Shown piece after piece: positions 50,269 to 58,858 of a DNA stretch of 64,000 bases. Every line of letters begins with the position of its first letter. Position 1 is the first letter of the stretch. The notes beneath the pieces were generated by a model. That model was not told the origin of the DNA, ran no database searches, and worked only from the letters and a program-made list of their open reading frames with translations. The stretch spans positions 5,394,001 through 5,458,000 of the forward strand of contig BSYQ01000003.1 of NCBI GenBank assembly GCA_030272585.1, read 5' to 3'. Made by a program: the position numbers and the translations under genes. This DNA is from Bryopsis sp. KO-2023. Lineage: Eukaryota; Chlorophyta; Ulvophyceae; Bryopsidales; Bryopsidaceae.

Positions 50269-53200
50269 ATGAAGGTCGTGGTGTTGGCCGGGACCTTTTG
50301 CGGGGTGGGCACGACGTCCATCGCCGTCGGGTTGATGCGCGAGCTCAGGTGAGGGAGCTGGTATGGGGAGTTGGGGTCCAGCGAGCTTTTTGGTCGCTCA
50401 CAGCGCGGATTAGGCACTTTTACTCCGTCTTTTGCTTTGAGAGGCAACACGTGTACGCGCGTTGGGGCTCAGTCCACCGGCGACGCGCCGCGGTGACCTA
50501 CGAAGTTACAGTCGTCGCGGGCGCGAAACTTCAGTGGTTGCGATATTCATCAGTTCTATTGCTGAGGTTCTGTACTCTCCTGTTTTCAGGGAAAAGGGGC
50601 TTCGTGTGCAGGGTTTCAAGGTCGGCCCAGGTTTGTGTTTTTTTTTCTGCGAAGGCTGCGAATGATGACGCTCGAAGACCGGTGTTTCGGAACTGACACA
50701 CGTGTTCTGCCTCACAGGGTTTGCTGAGAATGAGCTTTTCGAAGCCGCGACCGGGAGAATGGCCGTCAACTTGGATCCCTGGATGGTCCCGAAGGACTAC
50801 TTATTGACGTGCGTCCATCGATACGCCCCGGAATGCGATATCGCAGTGGTGGATGGTTGCGAAGGTCTGTACGACAGTCGCAACGATTCCGACGGGGAGT
50901 GGACCACAGCAGAGCTTGCGAAAGTGTTGGGAGCGCCTGTGTTGTTGGTCGTGGACGCGGCCCCAATGGGCCACAGCTGCGCGGCGATGGTGAGGGGATT
51001 CGAGTCGTTCGACAAGCGGGTGCGGATAGCGGGGGTCGTTTTGAATCGCGTATCGGACCAGGAGCACGCGAACTTGCTCGCTAAAGCGATGGCCAAAGGA
51101 GGGGTCAAGGCTGGCATGCTTGGGTGGATGCCAACGGTACGACAGAAAATTCAACCACCTGCCAAAAAAAAAACACATTTTGTAACATATCTACAGTTTG
51201 GTTTCACCTCCTTGATATATTCAAACTGCTTTAACCAAGGTTGATGAAAGTTTTTTTGTGTCGAAAAATTTGCAGAAAAATTTGCAGCAAAATTTGCAGG
51301 AAGACCTCAAAAAGTTGATTTTCGATCGGAAAATCAAGATTGGTTGCATGTGGATATTAGATTTCCCGATCCTCCTCTCCCGATTCTAATTTTTTATTTT
51401 TTGAAATTTTGTTGTTGTTTCTGTAGAGCAACAATATTATTGGCCTCATTGAGCGAAACGATCGCCGAGATAGCCCTGTGGAAGGCATACCTGCAGAGAG
51501 TTACGTGCAAGCTTTGGGAGAAATGGTGTCGTCGGGATTTGATCTGGACACCATTTTGGAAATCGGGTCCACATCTAAACTCCCAAAGTGTCCGCATGTT
51601 CGATCTGCACCTCCCAAATCGGCGGTCCGAATTGCTGTTGCCAAGGATGCTGCTTTTTCCTTTTATTACCACGAGTGAGTTTCTTTTTTTTGGAAAATAT
51701 GTGAGCATGTGTTGTGGGAGTTGAAAAAAAAAGACTGAGGATGTGAAGCCATAATTTTTCGTAAAGTAGGGTGGTGTTGGGGTGGTAGATAGGAAAGGAA
51801 AAAAATTGTGTGAAAATATATGCACACGATTTTTACTTTTTTTGAGAAAAAGAATCAACAGGTTGCTGCTTCGTTTTTGGATAGTTCTGGAATGTAGATC
51901 ACTTTGTTTTTTGTTTTCCCCCCGCCCCCTTCCCTTCCTTTCAACACCTTTTCTCATATGTTTAAATTTGTGCAAATTCAAACATGAAATTTGTGAGGGA
52001 AATTTTTTATTATTATTTTCCAGAAATTTCGTCTTACTGGAGGCTGGAGGTGCCGAACTCGTATTTTTCTCCCCCCTGGACGATGAGGAGCTCCCGAGCG
52101 ACATTGCTGCGGTGTATTTCGGTGGAGGCCATCCGGAATGCTACACTCAACGGCTTTCGGAGAATAAGAGGTTAATCAGTGCTGTCCAAGCTTTCGCTTC
52201 GGCCGGTGGTGTTGTGTATGCAGAAGGGGGAGGAGTTCTATACCTCTCCAAAAGCGTGCAGACCATCGGAGAATTTCCTGTGGACATGGGTAAGATTGAA
52301 CTTAAGTACAGAGGGTATTGGTGTTCGCTTGCTTGGCTGTTTTTCACAATGGTTGATTAGTGTAGGACATGGTGTTTTATGTCGGCATTCAAAAAAGCAG
52401 CTTTGGATTCGAAAAACAACCTTCTCTATCGATCATGGCAAAAACAGCAAGTTGTATCATTAGTCAGCATGTGGCTGCTGGTAACTTTCTAAAAAGTGCT
52501 GTTTTTTGCCACTCGTAAAAAAAAAATGAAGGGGAGGAAAACAGCTTTCGGAAGGCATTAGTCACCTGACTTTGAGACTGTTTTCTTCTTTAAGCAACCT
52601 CCTTTCCGAAGAATTTTTTCTGATGTATTTCTTGATTCAACAATAAAGGAATGGGGATGTGCTGTGAGGGTGAAATAGGAAATAAATGTTCTGTTGTTCT
52701 GTTACTTTCTGTCTTGCTGACTGGTGGTTTGTGTTGTTTTTTTTTGTATTTGCAGTGGGTTTGTTTCCTTTCCGGACTCGTATGGACGATTCTCCGATGT
52801 GGCAAAGCACCTACATTGAGGTCGAAATGCTGAGAAATTGCAGCCTGTTTCCTTCTGGAGGTCGGGTGCTCGGCCACGTATGCCATCAAAGCCAAGTTGT
52901 TGAAGAAATCGTCAGGTCCTTTTGGTCAGGGACCGAACAGGATATCAGTGCAGACTATGATTTTGCTTACAGACTTCATCAGAGAGGGGGTGTCGGGGCA
53001 CCCACCCTCGAAGGCTACTCATGGAAAAACGTGTTAGCCAGTTATGTTCATTTACAATTTGCGTCCAACCCCACGGTGGTCAGTTCTTTGGTGAGCCGAT
53101 GCCAGCAAGTGGATGTCGCGTTCGTTTCCGAAGAAGTGCAGAAAGCTGTAGGAATGACTTTCAAGAAGGGAAATCCGTACATGAAATCGCTGTCCCCAGT

Positions 53201-54530
53201 CCGGCCGATTTCGTTCGACATCGGCCACAGGAAGGGTTCGTTTCTGAGAGAAGGGTCGATGGATCATCTGTCAGGAATAGCGTCGAAGCGATTCAGTACC
53301 GACTGTCATGTATGGAAAAAGTCTAGCCTGTGCAGCTCCGCATCGTCGACAGGTTCCGAATTCAGCAGCAAAGGGGAGTTTATGATCAAGGAAAAGGAGA
53401 AGGGGTCTTCGGATGATTTTTGCTGGGAAAGGGCAAAACGGTCCGAATCGGTGTTGGCGTCCACGACGGGCTGCGGGGAGGAGCTCCGACGGTCGGCCAG
53501 TTTTGGCGATGTTGCAGTTTCGGCAGTCGGGAGGAATGCCAACAACAAGATCGTGGCTCTTTCCCCGTCCTCGGCGGAAATCGCATTCATGCTGGGGTTG
53601 GGCGATCGAGTCGTAGGGATGACTAATCTCTGTAACTTCCCGGACGGGGCCCAAGAAGGGAAAACAATGGCTGCGAAAACAAAGTTCGATCCGGGTCGGT
53701 TAGATAGGGGTAGGCTGGAAATGAAGCTGAAGGAGTTCTGGTGCAAGAAGGAGAGTGCCTTCGAGCTGAACGAAGAATACCTCCGGCAAGAACAGCCAGG
53801 GTTGGTGTTGGTGGATGAAAACGGGGACCCGAATCTGAGAATGGTTGAGAGAAGCCTTGCTGCAAGGAAGGGCTCCTTTGGTGGCCTCACTCCCATTCAA
53901 CCCACCAAAATCCTCTCCCACAAGATCCACCGATTGAGCGAGGTTTTCGATTACATGATCAGAGTGGGGGAAGCTGCCCACGTGACTAGGAGCTCGGAGA
54001 TTCTCGTCGATGGGTTACGGAATCGTGTGGCTAAAATCGGGTCTTTGGTGTTACCTTGTCCCCCACGGGAAAAGGTGGTAGTGCTCACAGGCTTGAACCC
54101 GCTGGTGGTGGGTGGTTATTGGATTCCAGAGATGGTGACATTGGCTGGGGGGGAGTTTGATGGTGGCCACACCGGGAAACCTCACCAGAGAATCACATGG
54201 GATCAGCTCCAAGACATGGCCCCTGAGGTTTTGATTCTAGCCGCAGGGACTTGGGAGGAAACCAAGCAAGAAATAGGTCAACTTGCCAGTCTTCCCGGAT
54301 GGTGGAGTCTGCCAGCAATGAAAACTGGGCAATTGTATGCCTGTGAACATTCGCTGTTCACCATCCCTGGCCCCAGATTGGTGGAGGGTATCGAACTTTT
54401 GGCCAGAATTTTGCACCCAAGCGTCGCCGGAAATTATGGAAAGAAAGGGATGGCTACGAGTTGCATTTTACGGAATGGTCGCCGGTGTAGGCCGTGTAAT
54501 CTTTCTCGGCACTTTTGCACTTTGCTGTGA
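50269..54530 (+). CDS. CobB/CbiA-like a,c-diamide synthase fused to a BtuF-like domain, active sites degenerate
   Basis: Six exons (50269-50348, 50590-50630, 50718-51136, 51427-51674, 52024-52289, 52756-54530) sum to 2829 nt, or 942 aa, in phase. Residues 1 to about 220 are the ATP-dependent amidoligase domain: VVVLAGTFCGVGTTSIAVGL, FKVGP, NLDPWM, DGCEGLYD and TTAELAKVLGAPVLLVVDA. Residues 255-450 are the glutamine amidotransferase domain: VRIAVAKDAAFSFYYHENFV, FSPLDDEELP, AAVYFGGGHPE and NVLASYVHLQFASNP. After a polar linker, residues 614-905 resemble BtuF/FepB-type corrinoid or siderophore binding proteins (ALSPSSAEIAFMLGLGDRVV). The Walker A Lys is Thr15, the PDYIDP motif is PGFAEN (40-45), and the glutaminase Cys is Gly331 (AEGGG), while His395 and the GLYD Asp93 remain. 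No signal peptide precedes the first domain, so it is probably intracellular. Corrinoid binding, sensing or delivery is inferred; biosynthetic activity is unlikely. Confidence 0.85.
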
Positions 54531-54887
54531 TTTTTTTTTTTATTTTGGAGAACTGAGGGGAAAAAAAATGGGGGCGAGGACTTGGGGAAAAAAAAGAAAG
54601 AAGGAAAAAGAGTGGGAAGAGTGACATCGGATTTGCTTTTGTTGTTGTTTTTTTTCTTCCCCCTCGAATTAGATGAAACTCTGTAGAAAAAATATGTGGG
54701 AGTTTTTCGCTCAGAGTAGTTTTGATTAGCATAAAAAAAAAAAAAAATGAAGAAAAGCTTGCAGGGTTTGATTTGCCCACTGAAACAAAAAAAAAGAGAG
54801 AGAGAAGGAAGGAAACGGGAATGGGGATGAGGTGGCAGCTTTTGAGGGAAGGGGTTTAAGAGAAATTAATCTTTTGTTTTTCTTTTA

Positions 54888-54920
<33 letters not shown>

Positions 54921-57900
54921 GTGGAGTTCCTGGGAGCCTGCCCATCTCGTTTGACACTGCCCTTTTTTTTTTTTTTTTTTCTTTTCGTTTTGTATTTCTT
55001 TTTATATATAAAAATATATATAAACCAACGGATGTGGGGGATTCACAATTTCAAATGTGCAAGACTGGCAAAATTGTGATTGTTTTTGATTGTCAGGGTG
55101 GGTTGGATATAAAAACGGGAAAATTGGATTATGTGTGTTTTGTGTGTGTGTGTGTGGTGAATGTGTGTGTCGGGTGAAAGGGAGGGAGGGAGGGCATTGG
55201 CTTTTTACAACTGGGTGGGTTTTGTGTGCCACACTGACTAAAGGAAAAAAAGAAAAAAAAAGAAAGAAAGAAAAAGAAGAAAAAGAAGAAAAAAAGAAAG
55301 AAAAAGGTTCACTTTTGTGTCCTGTTTGACAACAACAGATGAGATAGTTTTTTTTTTTCTTCTTTTGAAAAAAAAAAAGAAAATAGTTTCCCTTTTTTTT
55401 TTCTTGATTATGTTTTCGGGCAACGCGTGTCATGAGGCCTCCCGATGGAGAGAAGCATTTCTTGCCGATGTGGAGAGAAAAAAAAGAAAAAAGAAAAGAA
55501 AAGAGGGGGTAGTGGTGTTTCACATACGACAGTCGCCGGCTGCCCAATAATAGAAAAGAAAAGAAAACTGCTATATTTGATGTGCGACTGTCGTGTCCTC
55601 CTCTGGTTTCGGGCGATTTCGGGATGGGATGGGATGGGGAGAATTTTTTGGGGGGGTTGGGCGGGGTGGGAGGGAGGGAGGGGTGAAGAAAAAAAAAAGA
55701 AAAAAGAAAAAAAGCCAACAGAGTTTTTCCCAATCCGAGACATCCTTTGGTTCATCCCTTTTTGCAAAGAGTGCGAAGGAAAGAGAATGAAGTGTTTTAT
55801 ATTTTCATCATTCATTATTGTTATTTTCACCTCGGAACAAAAAAAAGCAGCCCCTCACGGAGAGAAACAGAACCCTTTTTTTTTTAAAGAGAAAAAGAGT
55901 CCTTTAAAAATGGGTAAGAAGATATATAATGTTATTCTTTGTGGGTGCGTATTCGATTTTTTCATGGAAAGGGAAAAGGGGCTACAGCTGTGATTGTTTT
56001 TATAGGTGGGGTGGGGATGTAAAAAAAAAAGAAAAAAAAAGAAAAAGAGAAAGAGTGAGGGTGGTGGGTATGCTTTAGTGTGGTACGTACCTCTGCTCAT
56101 CGAGAAAAATGAGATAAGAGGAGGGAAAATGAAGTAAAAGAGTGAGAGAGAGAGAGTGAGAAAAAACATATCTATATATTTATGTAATATTGGGGGGTTT
56201 TCTGGGGTTTTGTTGGATCATGCTATAGGATATTGATTTTTTTTGTTTAATTTTATGTTTTGATTCCAATTGCATGGTTTTTTTCTGGCAGAGAGTGAGA
56301 AGAAAAAAAAAAAAAGAGAGAGAATTGGCCACAAAAAAGAGAAGACATATGTGTGTAGCAGCTGTGTTTTATATATTGGGTTTTTTTTGGGAGTGGAGGG
56401 GTTTATTCTGTTGGGGAACAAAACAGAGAGGGAGAGCATTGATAGATGCACCATTTTTTCGTCTTTCGACTCTTTTCGTAACATATTTTTGGGCGTTTTT
56501 TTTTCCAGTCGGTGTTTTTTTCTAGGATTAAAATAGCGAACGGAATAGTCGGGGGAAATGAAACAAGAAAAGAAGATTAAGAGAGAAGAAATTCATTAGT
56601 GTTTTTTTTCTTTGTCTTTTTTTTGATGTCGTCCAGCCAAAATGTGGAAAATGGCTTTTTTTTCTAGTTCTATTTTTAGACGACGGTGGGATGTTTCTCG
56701 TATCAGTCTGGGATTTAGCTTGTGTCAGATTCTGTTTTTCCTCTCTTCGTTTTTTGCTTTTTTTTTTTCTGCTTTTCTGGCAGCGTATCGAGAGATCCTA
56801 CAGAAAAAAAGAAAATAAAAAGAGTGAGAAAGAGAGAGTCGGGGAGAAAAGCGTCACAGATTCAGCAGAGGATTTATATATAAATATAAAAAATGGTTCT
56901 TTTGACTGCATCAAGACTGCTGGATTGAACATTCTATCTGTAAAGATGGAAATGATCGGTATTATGGACATGTATGGTAACGTTGAAAAGAAAAGTTTGG
57001 TTGGGGATTTAGCGAGCATGATTTAGATTCATTTGTCACGTGGGCGTGGAAGGAATTTTTGAAAAAAGGGGGTTAGGAGGGGGTTTGGGTGGGGAAAGGG
57101 AAAATGGGTTTGGCAGTTGAGGGTCAAGAGCATAAAACAAACACTGGCATAGGATTGGATGCAAAGGATGTGTTTTGTTTTTCATATTTTATAAAAATAT
57201 ACTTTGGGGGGTGGGGGGGGGTGGGGAGAAGGAGAAGGGGGGTAAAAAAAAAAGGTATGGCTCTGATTTTTTTTAGATGTTGGAGGGAAAAGAAAAAAGA
57301 AAAAAAAAAAGAGGAGAGGGAAGTTTTAAGTGTCAGTGGGGAAAAAAAAACACGAAATAGAGAAATTTACCACCTAAACAGAAAAAAGAGCATAGAGTGG
57401 GTTTGTTTTTTTCTTGCCCTGAATTTTTTTTTCTTCCTTTTTTTTATCTTTTTCCAGTCAACCGCACGAATGTCAGATTCGAAAAACGAGTGGGATTTGA
57501 ACAGCAATACTTTATCATTATATTCTCGTCAAGTTCCACCGAAGGCCGGTGTGTAACATCCATCCATGCATGTGTCTCTATCATTCTTTTTTTTTTCCTT
57601 TTTTTTTTCTTTTTTGCTTGTTCGCCCATAGCGTTGCATTTAATAGCATAGCATATAGCATATTATCTCCTTTGATTATTCCCCACACCCCACCTTTTTT
57701 TTTCTGATTTTTATTGAAAGATTCTGTGGGACGATGGGTATTTTTCCCTCGAAAACTTTTGTCCCCCTGATTTATTTTCCACTTTTATTTTCGCGTTTTT
57801 TTCCCTCGTGAAGGAAGTGTTTGAAAGGGGAGGGGATTTTGAATTCCAGACATGGTTCGTGTGGGTATATTTTTCTGAAAATTTTTCTGGGTTGGTCCCT

Positions 57901-58858
57901 TTTCATCATATGTGTCTATTAGTACATACATACATGTATTCTTTTTTGTGCATCATATTGTTTATGTTTTGTTCATTCATGTAAAGAGTTTTCACACGAG
58001 TTTTGATGCTTTCCTTTATTATGTATCCATGGAAAAGAGGATTTTTTTTCCTTAGGGGTGCCTTCGGTTTTAGGTCAAATCATGAGAGTGCGAAAGGTTT
58101 GTTGATACGGGGTTGAAACAATTGGGGAGAGGGGGGGGGAGATGGTTTTGTTTTGTTTCGTTTCGTTTTCTGAGGATAGGCATTATGTCTATATTTCCAA
58201 CAGGGAGCTGCAACCGTGGTTTTCATTCTCAAAAGGTGAAAATTGTTTTTCCAGCGGGGTTTGAACTGTAGGGTTTTTGCATGTTGAAAGCCTGGATTGG
58301 GAATTCTTTCTGTTTCAAGAAATACTAGGATGTGGAACAGGTGATTGTGGAGTCGTGGTTTGGAAAAGACAGTTGTGCAGGCAAAAGTCTCCATCAGGGA
58401 CTTTGTGTGCAGGCTGAGGATATTGCTAATAGGATGTTTGGTTTTAAGGGGGGTCTGTTGTGGATTGGACTGCAAGAAACCAAAGTAGCCAAAATACTGT
58501 CAAAACACTTGATTTCGATTTTGGTGGTACCCGGAGCACCTGTTCCGATGCATCTGAAGGGTTTTTGAGGATTATGCATTTCCAACAAGCCATTGACAAA
58601 GATTCGAGTTGTACAATCGATGTTCGCGAGGGGCTGCTTCGAAATAATTTAAAACAATACAAAAAAATATGTACTCTTCTTCAAGATACAACACCAACTT
58701 CTTTTCCACCAGCAGCAGTTGAAAAGATCGTCATATTCTCTGGTTTAGAAGAGCATGACAATGACCTACCCCACAATACAAAAAAAAAAGAAAAAAACAA
58801 GTAAAAAACAAAAAATACGGTCAAGAAATGAATGGTCAAAATCACAATCTTGCTTCAA
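54531..58858. other. Gene-free homopurine/homopyrimidine region
   Basis: No supported gene in 4.3 kb. The DNA is dominated by long runs of A, T, AAAG, GGGA and their complements; for example T-runs at 54890-54920 and 54961-54980, GAAAGAAA at 55241-55304 and GGGATGGGATGGGATGGGG at 55621-55640. Lys-, Phe- or Ser-rich frames crossing it are composition artefacts. A short frame at 57470-57556 (MSDSKNEWDLNSNTLSLYSR) follows an acceptor-like TTTTTCCAG and is the only hint of an exon. Confidence 0.55.

Follow-up and report, generated by a model that had tools for sequence, protein, structure and literature searches.

CfbB, the Ni-sirohydrochlorin a,c-diamide synthase, is an enzyme very similar to the cobyrinate a,c-diamide synthase CobB/CbiA, and the side chains that it amidates on Ni-sirohydrochlorin are the same, as stated in an excerpt of PMC7242693. 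CBA1, an algal cobalamin acquisition protein, has a BtuF-like predicted structure; it also carries a signal peptide, is targeted to the endoplasmic reticulum and has a transmembrane helix predicted at its C-terminus, according to the excerpted text of PMC10828217. A CobB-like protein is recorded in one prymnesiophyte transcriptome in a partial text of PMC4057078. We found no paper on a fusion of CbiA to a periplasmic-binding-protein (PBP) domain in the open-licence literature. Here we describe such a fusion in a 64,000-nucleotide stretch of contig BSYQ01000003.1 (below, the window) from Bryopsis sp. KO-2023. Bryopsis is a giant single-celled green seaweed.

The gene lies at 50269–54530 of the forward strand and, once spliced, comprises six exons and 942 codons. 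Its product has the domain order CbiA-GATase_3-linker-PBP, the last domain having a BtuF-type fold. Residues nearly invariant in bacterial relatives are replaced in both halves of the protein in the Bryopsis/Ostreobium clade (the Bryopsis-type clade). A working cobyrinate a,c-diamide synthase in Bryopsis is unlikely because the Walker-A Lys, the GATase Cys and other invariant residues are gone. We lean towards a reading in which the family arose from two prokaryotic genes and the Bryopsidales form is a cytosolic, non-catalytic binder, scaffold or sensor, and we hold this combination to be somewhat probable.

Lost and kept residues of the CobB/CbiA half

The N-terminal half matched the TIGR00379 model over its whole length (336.5 bits; cut-off 261.4) and the cobB model PRK01077 (362.8 bits; cut-off 254). 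For the F430_CfbB model, which aligned to the CbiA half, the score of 305 bits fell short of the cut-off (560). Since a profile search of the PDB for a CbiA structure returned only relatives of PdxT, GatD and dethiobiotin synthetase (GatD being named 'cobyric acid synthase' in two entries), catalytic residues were assessed from their conservation and from general biochemical knowledge. The labels eukaryote, bacterial and Bryopsis-type were set, for most database proteins including P0003–P0013, by architecture and tree position, and sequences without a given alignment column were left uncounted in the residue tallies.

Exon 1 (50269–50348) carries the start codon and the P-loop of the CbiA domain. 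Its Walker-A position, residue 15 (50311–50313), is Thr in Bryopsis; the Lys (K15) is found in 58/58 bacterial sequences and in none of six from the clade. Exon 2 (50590–50630) precedes exon 3 (50718–51136), which encodes the remaining CbiA domain with the GPDxxDP and VEG sites. The first of these sites reads GPGFAEN, placing Gly at the D41 position and Glu at the D44 position (50726–50728); D41 is retained by 2 of 6 clade members against 58 of 58 bacterial sequences. The second reads VDG, with Asp at the position of E86 (50852–50854), a Glu present in all 58 bacterial sequences and absent from all seven of the clade. Exon 4 (51427–51674) covers the interdomain linker, where the RHLGL motif is lost, and the start of GATase_3. 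This domain continues in exon 5 (52024–52289), where the catalytic Cys position, residue 331 (52226–52228), is Gly within YAEGGG (Cys in 0/10 clade sequences and 57/58 bacterial ones). In exon 6 (52756–54530), which holds the end of GATase_3, the linker, the PBP domain, the tail and the stop codon, the family motif VHLHF reads VHLQF. The second His of the HLH motif is thereby Gln452 (53055–53057), and none of the 10 clade sequences has the His.

At 75 columns that are at least 96% conserved in the bacterial sequences, the clade keeps 60 residues and loses 15, and 13 of the 15 fall in the P-loop, GPDxxDP, VEGVMGLxDG, RHLGL, ECGG and HLH motifs. The same 15 columns are mostly kept in 24 other fusions, hand-picked and all with the GATase Cys. 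The original prediction had treated this half as a cobyrinate a,c-diamide synthase; its domain assignment stands, with CobB/CbiA models above their cut-offs and GATase_3 and PBP domains matched, but the enzyme it implied has lost key catalytic residues.

We also followed the GATase Cys through 118 eukaryotic sequences, after dropping fragments, sequences without the Cys column and those more than 90% identical to one already kept. It was retained in 95 and missing in 23, losses that need nine changes on the tree, at least seven of them forced by well supported branches. Sequences lacking it include the Bryopsis-type clade, a Picochlorum-type clade, Elliptochloris, Riccia, a Selaginella and Diphasiastrum group, one Tetraselmis and several others; Marchantia, a relative of Riccia, keeps it. 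Among sequences that have the Walker-A column, which many do not, the Lys was missing outside the Bryopsis-type clade in P0053 and P0054 alone, two proteins with N-termini that cannot be aligned as a P-loop. To our knowledge, neither the Bryopsidales form inactivated in both halves nor the recurrent loss of the glutaminase Cys had been observed before.

A leaderless BtuF-fold domain and its prokaryotic relatives

The linker spans residues 461–611 (53082–53534), over which five clade members share 24% identity on average, with a predicted local distance difference test score below 50 at residues 491–611. An AlphaFold2 model of the full-length protein, combined with fold searches, gave a two-lobed, helical-backbone PBP domain of the BtuF type (class III, leaderless) at residues 612–907 (53535–54422), close to the 614–905 for which a BtuF-like fold had been proposed. 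The proposal held for the fold and not for the family, since the domain belongs to a leaderless family rather than to periplasmic BtuF, and heme and siderophore binders match the fold as well as BtuF does. There is no room for a leader peptide in the Bryopsis protein: in the model the opening strand of the P-loop domain starts as early as residue 2, and an in-frame stop lies upstream of the ATG with no further in-frame ATG between. Judged from the model and the reading frame, and with its PBP domain at the C-terminal end, the protein lacks the signal for periplasmic export expected of BtuF and the N-terminal signal peptide expected of CBA1.

Among the best 120 of 502 matches to the C-terminal domain, most were proteins of about 300–330 amino acids, some of them named bacterial 'cobalamin-binding protein'. 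In 107 of the 110 bacterial sequences in which the motif pattern was found (114 scanned), the first motif lies within 15 residues of the start, so this bacterial family has no leader. Its nearest members in named genomes come from SAR202/Dehalococcoidia Chloroflexi, one proteobacterial metagenome-assembled genome and Nitrososphaerales. In a tree of 64 sequences, 27 of 28 eukaryotic PBP domains formed one clade (support 99) inside the leaderless prokaryotic family, the exception being the Tetraselmis protein P0056. This protein, assigned to Tetraselmis by its identifier, has the reversed order glycosyltransferase-type PF01501, PBP, CbiA and is either a fusion that arose independently or the product of an error in the gene model. 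Another Tetraselmis copy, P0239, is placed elsewhere in the CbiA tree.

Replacement of conserved residues extends to this domain. The TQxxCxxC-type motif occurs in 111 of 114 bacterial sequences and in none of 13 from the Bryopsis-type clade, Bryopsis having DENGDPN at the site (residues 705–711; 53814–53834). The motif pattern misses valid eukaryotic variants such as VQ, which makes its 53 of 124 eukaryotic sequences an undercount, and only the bacterial and Bryopsis-type counts are used. The residues at the Q705, C708, C711, E796 (the Glu of LEG/LEW), C849 and R888 (the first Arg of SRPGPR) positions are each absent from all 13 clade sequences, and the H806 position is kept by two; each of these seven is kept in 16–20 of 24 other fusions, also hand-picked. 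Over 39 near-invariant bacterial columns the clade keeps 21 and loses 17, one having no clade residue. The residues we take to line the BtuF pocket (Y50, W66, W85, F162 and W196) align to L, T, D, T and H in Bryopsis, none of the five being Tyr, Trp or Phe, in an alignment of about 18% identity.

The same alga has a second, stand-alone leaderless binding-protein gene (L012:700–2130; C1:8191375–8191857, minus strand). It keeps TQSVCAVC, branches with other bacteria and appears to extend into further exons.

The loci that hold the nearest prokaryotic relatives bear on the origin of the fusion. The gene cbiA adjoins a binding-protein gene in 2 of 36 such loci: L043 has the order binding protein, cbiA, second binding-protein-like gene, and L044 has cbiA with two binding-protein genes. 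CbiA was found in 13 of the 15 genomes searched. At L061 a binding-protein frame directly follows cbiA; in the other genomes with CbiA the two genes are separated, or the flank does not reach far enough to show their order. A different arrangement, a binding-protein gene followed by a flavin-reductase gene (PF01613, demonstrated for one of them), occurs in 22 of the 36 loci, those of SAR202/Dehalococcoidia type (region labels L024–L041, L046, L050, L055 and L058). Taken as gene-order evidence, these arrangements are consistent with cytosolic corrinoid handling.

Some further neighbours were seen at these loci. In L026, the one locus scanned, a major facilitator superfamily transporter and an HpcH/HpaI aldolase lie near the flavin-reductase gene in a conserved cluster. 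In Nitrososphaerales, a gene resembling an energy-coupling-factor-type S component (L044:1570–2139; PF12822, 25 bits, below cut-off) stands beside tandem leaderless binding-protein genes. A similar one was recognised by eye at L045:4213–4848, with a ribonucleotide reductase gene nearby.

Gene structure, eukaryotic spread and constraint

All five introns are GT-AG: 50349–50589 (241 bases, phase 2), 50631–50717 (87 bases, phase 1), 51137–51426 (290 bases, phase 0), 51675–52023 (349 bases, phase 2) and 52290–52755 (466 bases, phase 1). The product is identical over its full length to BSKO_03937 of Bryopsis sp. KO-2023, the nearest database entry, and its alignment with the Ostreobium protein is free of gaps across every splice junction. 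Residues 352–942, comprising the end of GATase_3 and the whole C-terminal domain, are encoded by one exon; because the joint thus falls within exon 6, the fusion is no artefact of the gene model. The window sits in an 8.2-Mb contig (the assembly totals 91 Mb in 28 contigs) and also contains a TFIIA alpha/beta gene, which together make the locus nuclear. The look of the domains is bacterial, which is what contamination would produce, but with a joint inside one exon, clean introns, a nuclear contig and the fusion also present in Ostreobium and numerous further eukaryotes, we give next to no credence to an artefact or a contaminant, and two separate genes are ruled out on the same grounds. The original prediction of a six-exon nuclear CobB/CbiA-BtuF fusion of 942 codons, with its introns arguing against contamination, is thereby confirmed by splicing, domain matches and the exon-6 joint.

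The fusion is shared well beyond this genome. With the Bryopsis and Myrmecia proteins as queries (best 120 of 228 and best 120 of 1041 matches, respectively), chlorophyte relatives were found in Ostreobium, Myrmecia, Trebouxia, Micractinium, Chloropicon and Tetraselmis. Land-plant relatives came from Marchantia, Riccia, Physcomitrium (an entry without the P-loop region in the database used), Ceratodon, Diphasiastrum and Selaginella (no Peripla_BP_2 listed). Others came from oomycetes, dinoflagellates and Triparma; the Chara relative is the CbiA half only and that of a chytrid is CbiA alone. Further identifiers carry gene-id prefixes that we take to denote Mesotaenium, Chlorokybus, Spirogloea and Picochlorum. 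The CbiA proteins of oomycetes, dinoflagellates and Triparma carry Kelch-type repeats and PF17653, presumably DUF5522 (P0044, P0050, P0052, P0267, P0273, P0278 and others). A branch of the CbiA tree supported at 99 has all 32 eukaryotic sequences on the same side, and both parts of the Bryopsis protein fall inside eukaryotic clades.

The stem of the Bryopsis-type clade is 0.93 in the CbiA tree (0.69 with other sequences) and 1.28 in the PBP tree. This long stem, with its many lost invariant residues, is what would be seen in a gene decaying under relaxed selection with no important function left, and six of the 13 clade sequences, assembly predictions of 571–673 amino acids, lack the N-terminal part. 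The other seven, however, are open throughout at 860–984 amino acids, and the Bryopsis gene has an open frame and five clean introns. Mean identity among five clade members is 60% for CbiA, 59% for GATase_3, 64% for the PBP domain and 75% for the conserved C-terminal tail (residues 911–942; 54432–54527), against 23–24% for the linkers. Loss of key residues from domains conserved in this way fits replacement of function over decay, and we regard decay as very improbable.

No cobalamin riboswitch or tRNA was found in the 64-kb window. Downstream of the fusion gene, 54540–56500 holds long poly-T and GAAA-type simple-sequence stretches, and GC skew is strong at 54001–58000.

B12 genes, proposed role and comparison with known systems

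We searched the 91-Mb genome exon by exon for other genes of vitamin B12 metabolism. METH matched on C10, METE on C5 and cob(I)alamin adenosyltransferase at C1:2930722–2931732; MMACHC gave a weak fragment below cut-off. CobT, CobS, CbiB and methylmalonyl-CoA mutase were not found by this search, in which an intron-rich gene could be missed and absence is moderate evidence; CobT, CobS and CbiB matched in 7–10 of 14 control genomes, as expected for patchy pathways. CobQ was likewise not found, the sole GATase_3 match in the genome besides the fusion being L010. This locus was rejected as a second cbiA or a cobQ, its translation reading by eye as PdxT/SNO. The adenosyltransferase match thus coexists with matches to both METE and METH and with no methylmalonyl-CoA mutase found.

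These genes would suit a working intracellular corrinoid handler whose CbiA half still amidates incomplete corrinoids delivered by the BtuF half, as in salvage, and CobB/CbiA models above their cut-offs and a GATase Cys kept in most eukaryotic sequences speak for it too. Against it stand the replaced catalytic residues of the Bryopsis-type clade and the genome search, since an a,c-diamide would have no onward route where CobQ, CbiB, CobS and CobT were not found. The distribution of the family also tells against it. According to the excerpted text of PMC11439496, METH was lost in mosses and vascular plants, and CblB and CblJ are all that liverworts keep; among the plants reported there to lack METH, the family is still present in mosses and lycophytes, and so does not track B12-dependent methionine synthesis. 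We consider such a handler unlikely.

That persistence in plants without METH instead favours a ligand other than a corrinoid, as does the lack of conservation at the BtuF-type pocket positions in the low-identity alignment. The family might amidate or bind another uroporphyrinogen-III-derived tetrapyrrole (siro-type, or a chlorophyll or heme derivative), with no service to B12, and the Bryopsidales might have kept its binding or regulatory half. CfbB offers a precedent for such a substrate, heme binders match the PBP fold as well as BtuF does, and the GATase Cys has been lost repeatedly. Some prokaryotic relatives, on the other hand, adjoin cbiA; these neighbours, with METH in the genome, favour a corrinoid ligand. 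A role wholly outside B12 is in our judgement a possibility, if a rather doubtful one.

The non-catalytic reading supposes that the family began as a prokaryotic two-gene unit, in which an amidating enzyme would have been presented with its substrate, a corrinoid or related tetrapyrrole, by a binding protein. The eukaryotic form would be an ancient corrinoid/tetrapyrrole amidase fusion, and that of the Bryopsidales a cytosolic pseudoenzyme that works by binding, amidation having been lost. It may serve as a tetrapyrrole or corrinoid chaperone, as a scaffold or as a sensor, with a flexible linker between its halves. From the residues lost we infer that the Bryopsis protein is incapable of amidation and that its action in the cytosol is that of a binder or scaffold.

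Several points weigh against this reading. The rest of the P-loop (GxGxT) is intact and GATase His450 is kept in 10 of 10 clade sequences; the absence of invariant residues is no proof of inactivity, and ammonia can replace glutamine for CbiA-type enzymes. Chlorellales-type fusions (Micractinium, Nannochloris) are also without TQxxCxxC and keep the GATase Cys. Intact relatives were part of the AlphaFold2 alignment, so the fold modelled at the altered sites may derive from them. METH and adenosyltransferase matches also make a B12-linked role plausible.

A broader picture is more tentative. The family may be a hitherto undescribed, cytosolic, eukaryote-wide tetrapyrrole-handling one, descended from a prokaryotic pair of cbiA and a binding-protein gene, that outlasts B12-dependent methionine synthesis and has repeatedly turned from enzyme to pseudoenzyme. 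The Bryopsidales, with both active sites erased, would be its most extreme case and possibly a corrinoid or tetrapyrrole sensor or chaperone. Eukaryotes are not known to assemble corrin rings; in many algae and early plants, nonetheless, a corrin side-chain amidase is fused to a binding protein of the B12 type. The Bryopsidales members are a natural case of lost catalysis that may separate binding from amidation.

Compared with CobB/CbiA, the Bryopsis protein has the same two-domain N-terminal half, matched over its whole length above both cut-offs. It differs in its replaced Walker-A Lys, GPDxxDP Asp, VEG Glu, RHLGL, GATase Cys and second HLH His, in its fused PBP domain and in a genome where later pathway genes were not found. 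CfbB is of the same fold family as the CbiA half, which scores below the curated CfbB cut-off and lacks the same residues. The PBP domain shares the two-lobed fold of E. coli and Vibrio BtuF but sits in a leaderless protein. It also resembles CBA1, compared by description, in its BtuF-like predicted structure, the signal peptide being CBA1's only. Its direct relatives are the leaderless 'cobalamin-binding proteins' of SAR202/Dehalococcoidia, Acidobacteria and Nitrososphaerales (36% identity over 298 residues, E 1e-63), from which all 13 Bryopsis-type sequences differ at the TQxxCxxC, E796, C849 and R888 positions. The intact eukaryotic fusions share its domain order and a common ancestry with it, and three of their members keep the K, D, E and C that the Bryopsis-type sequences do not.

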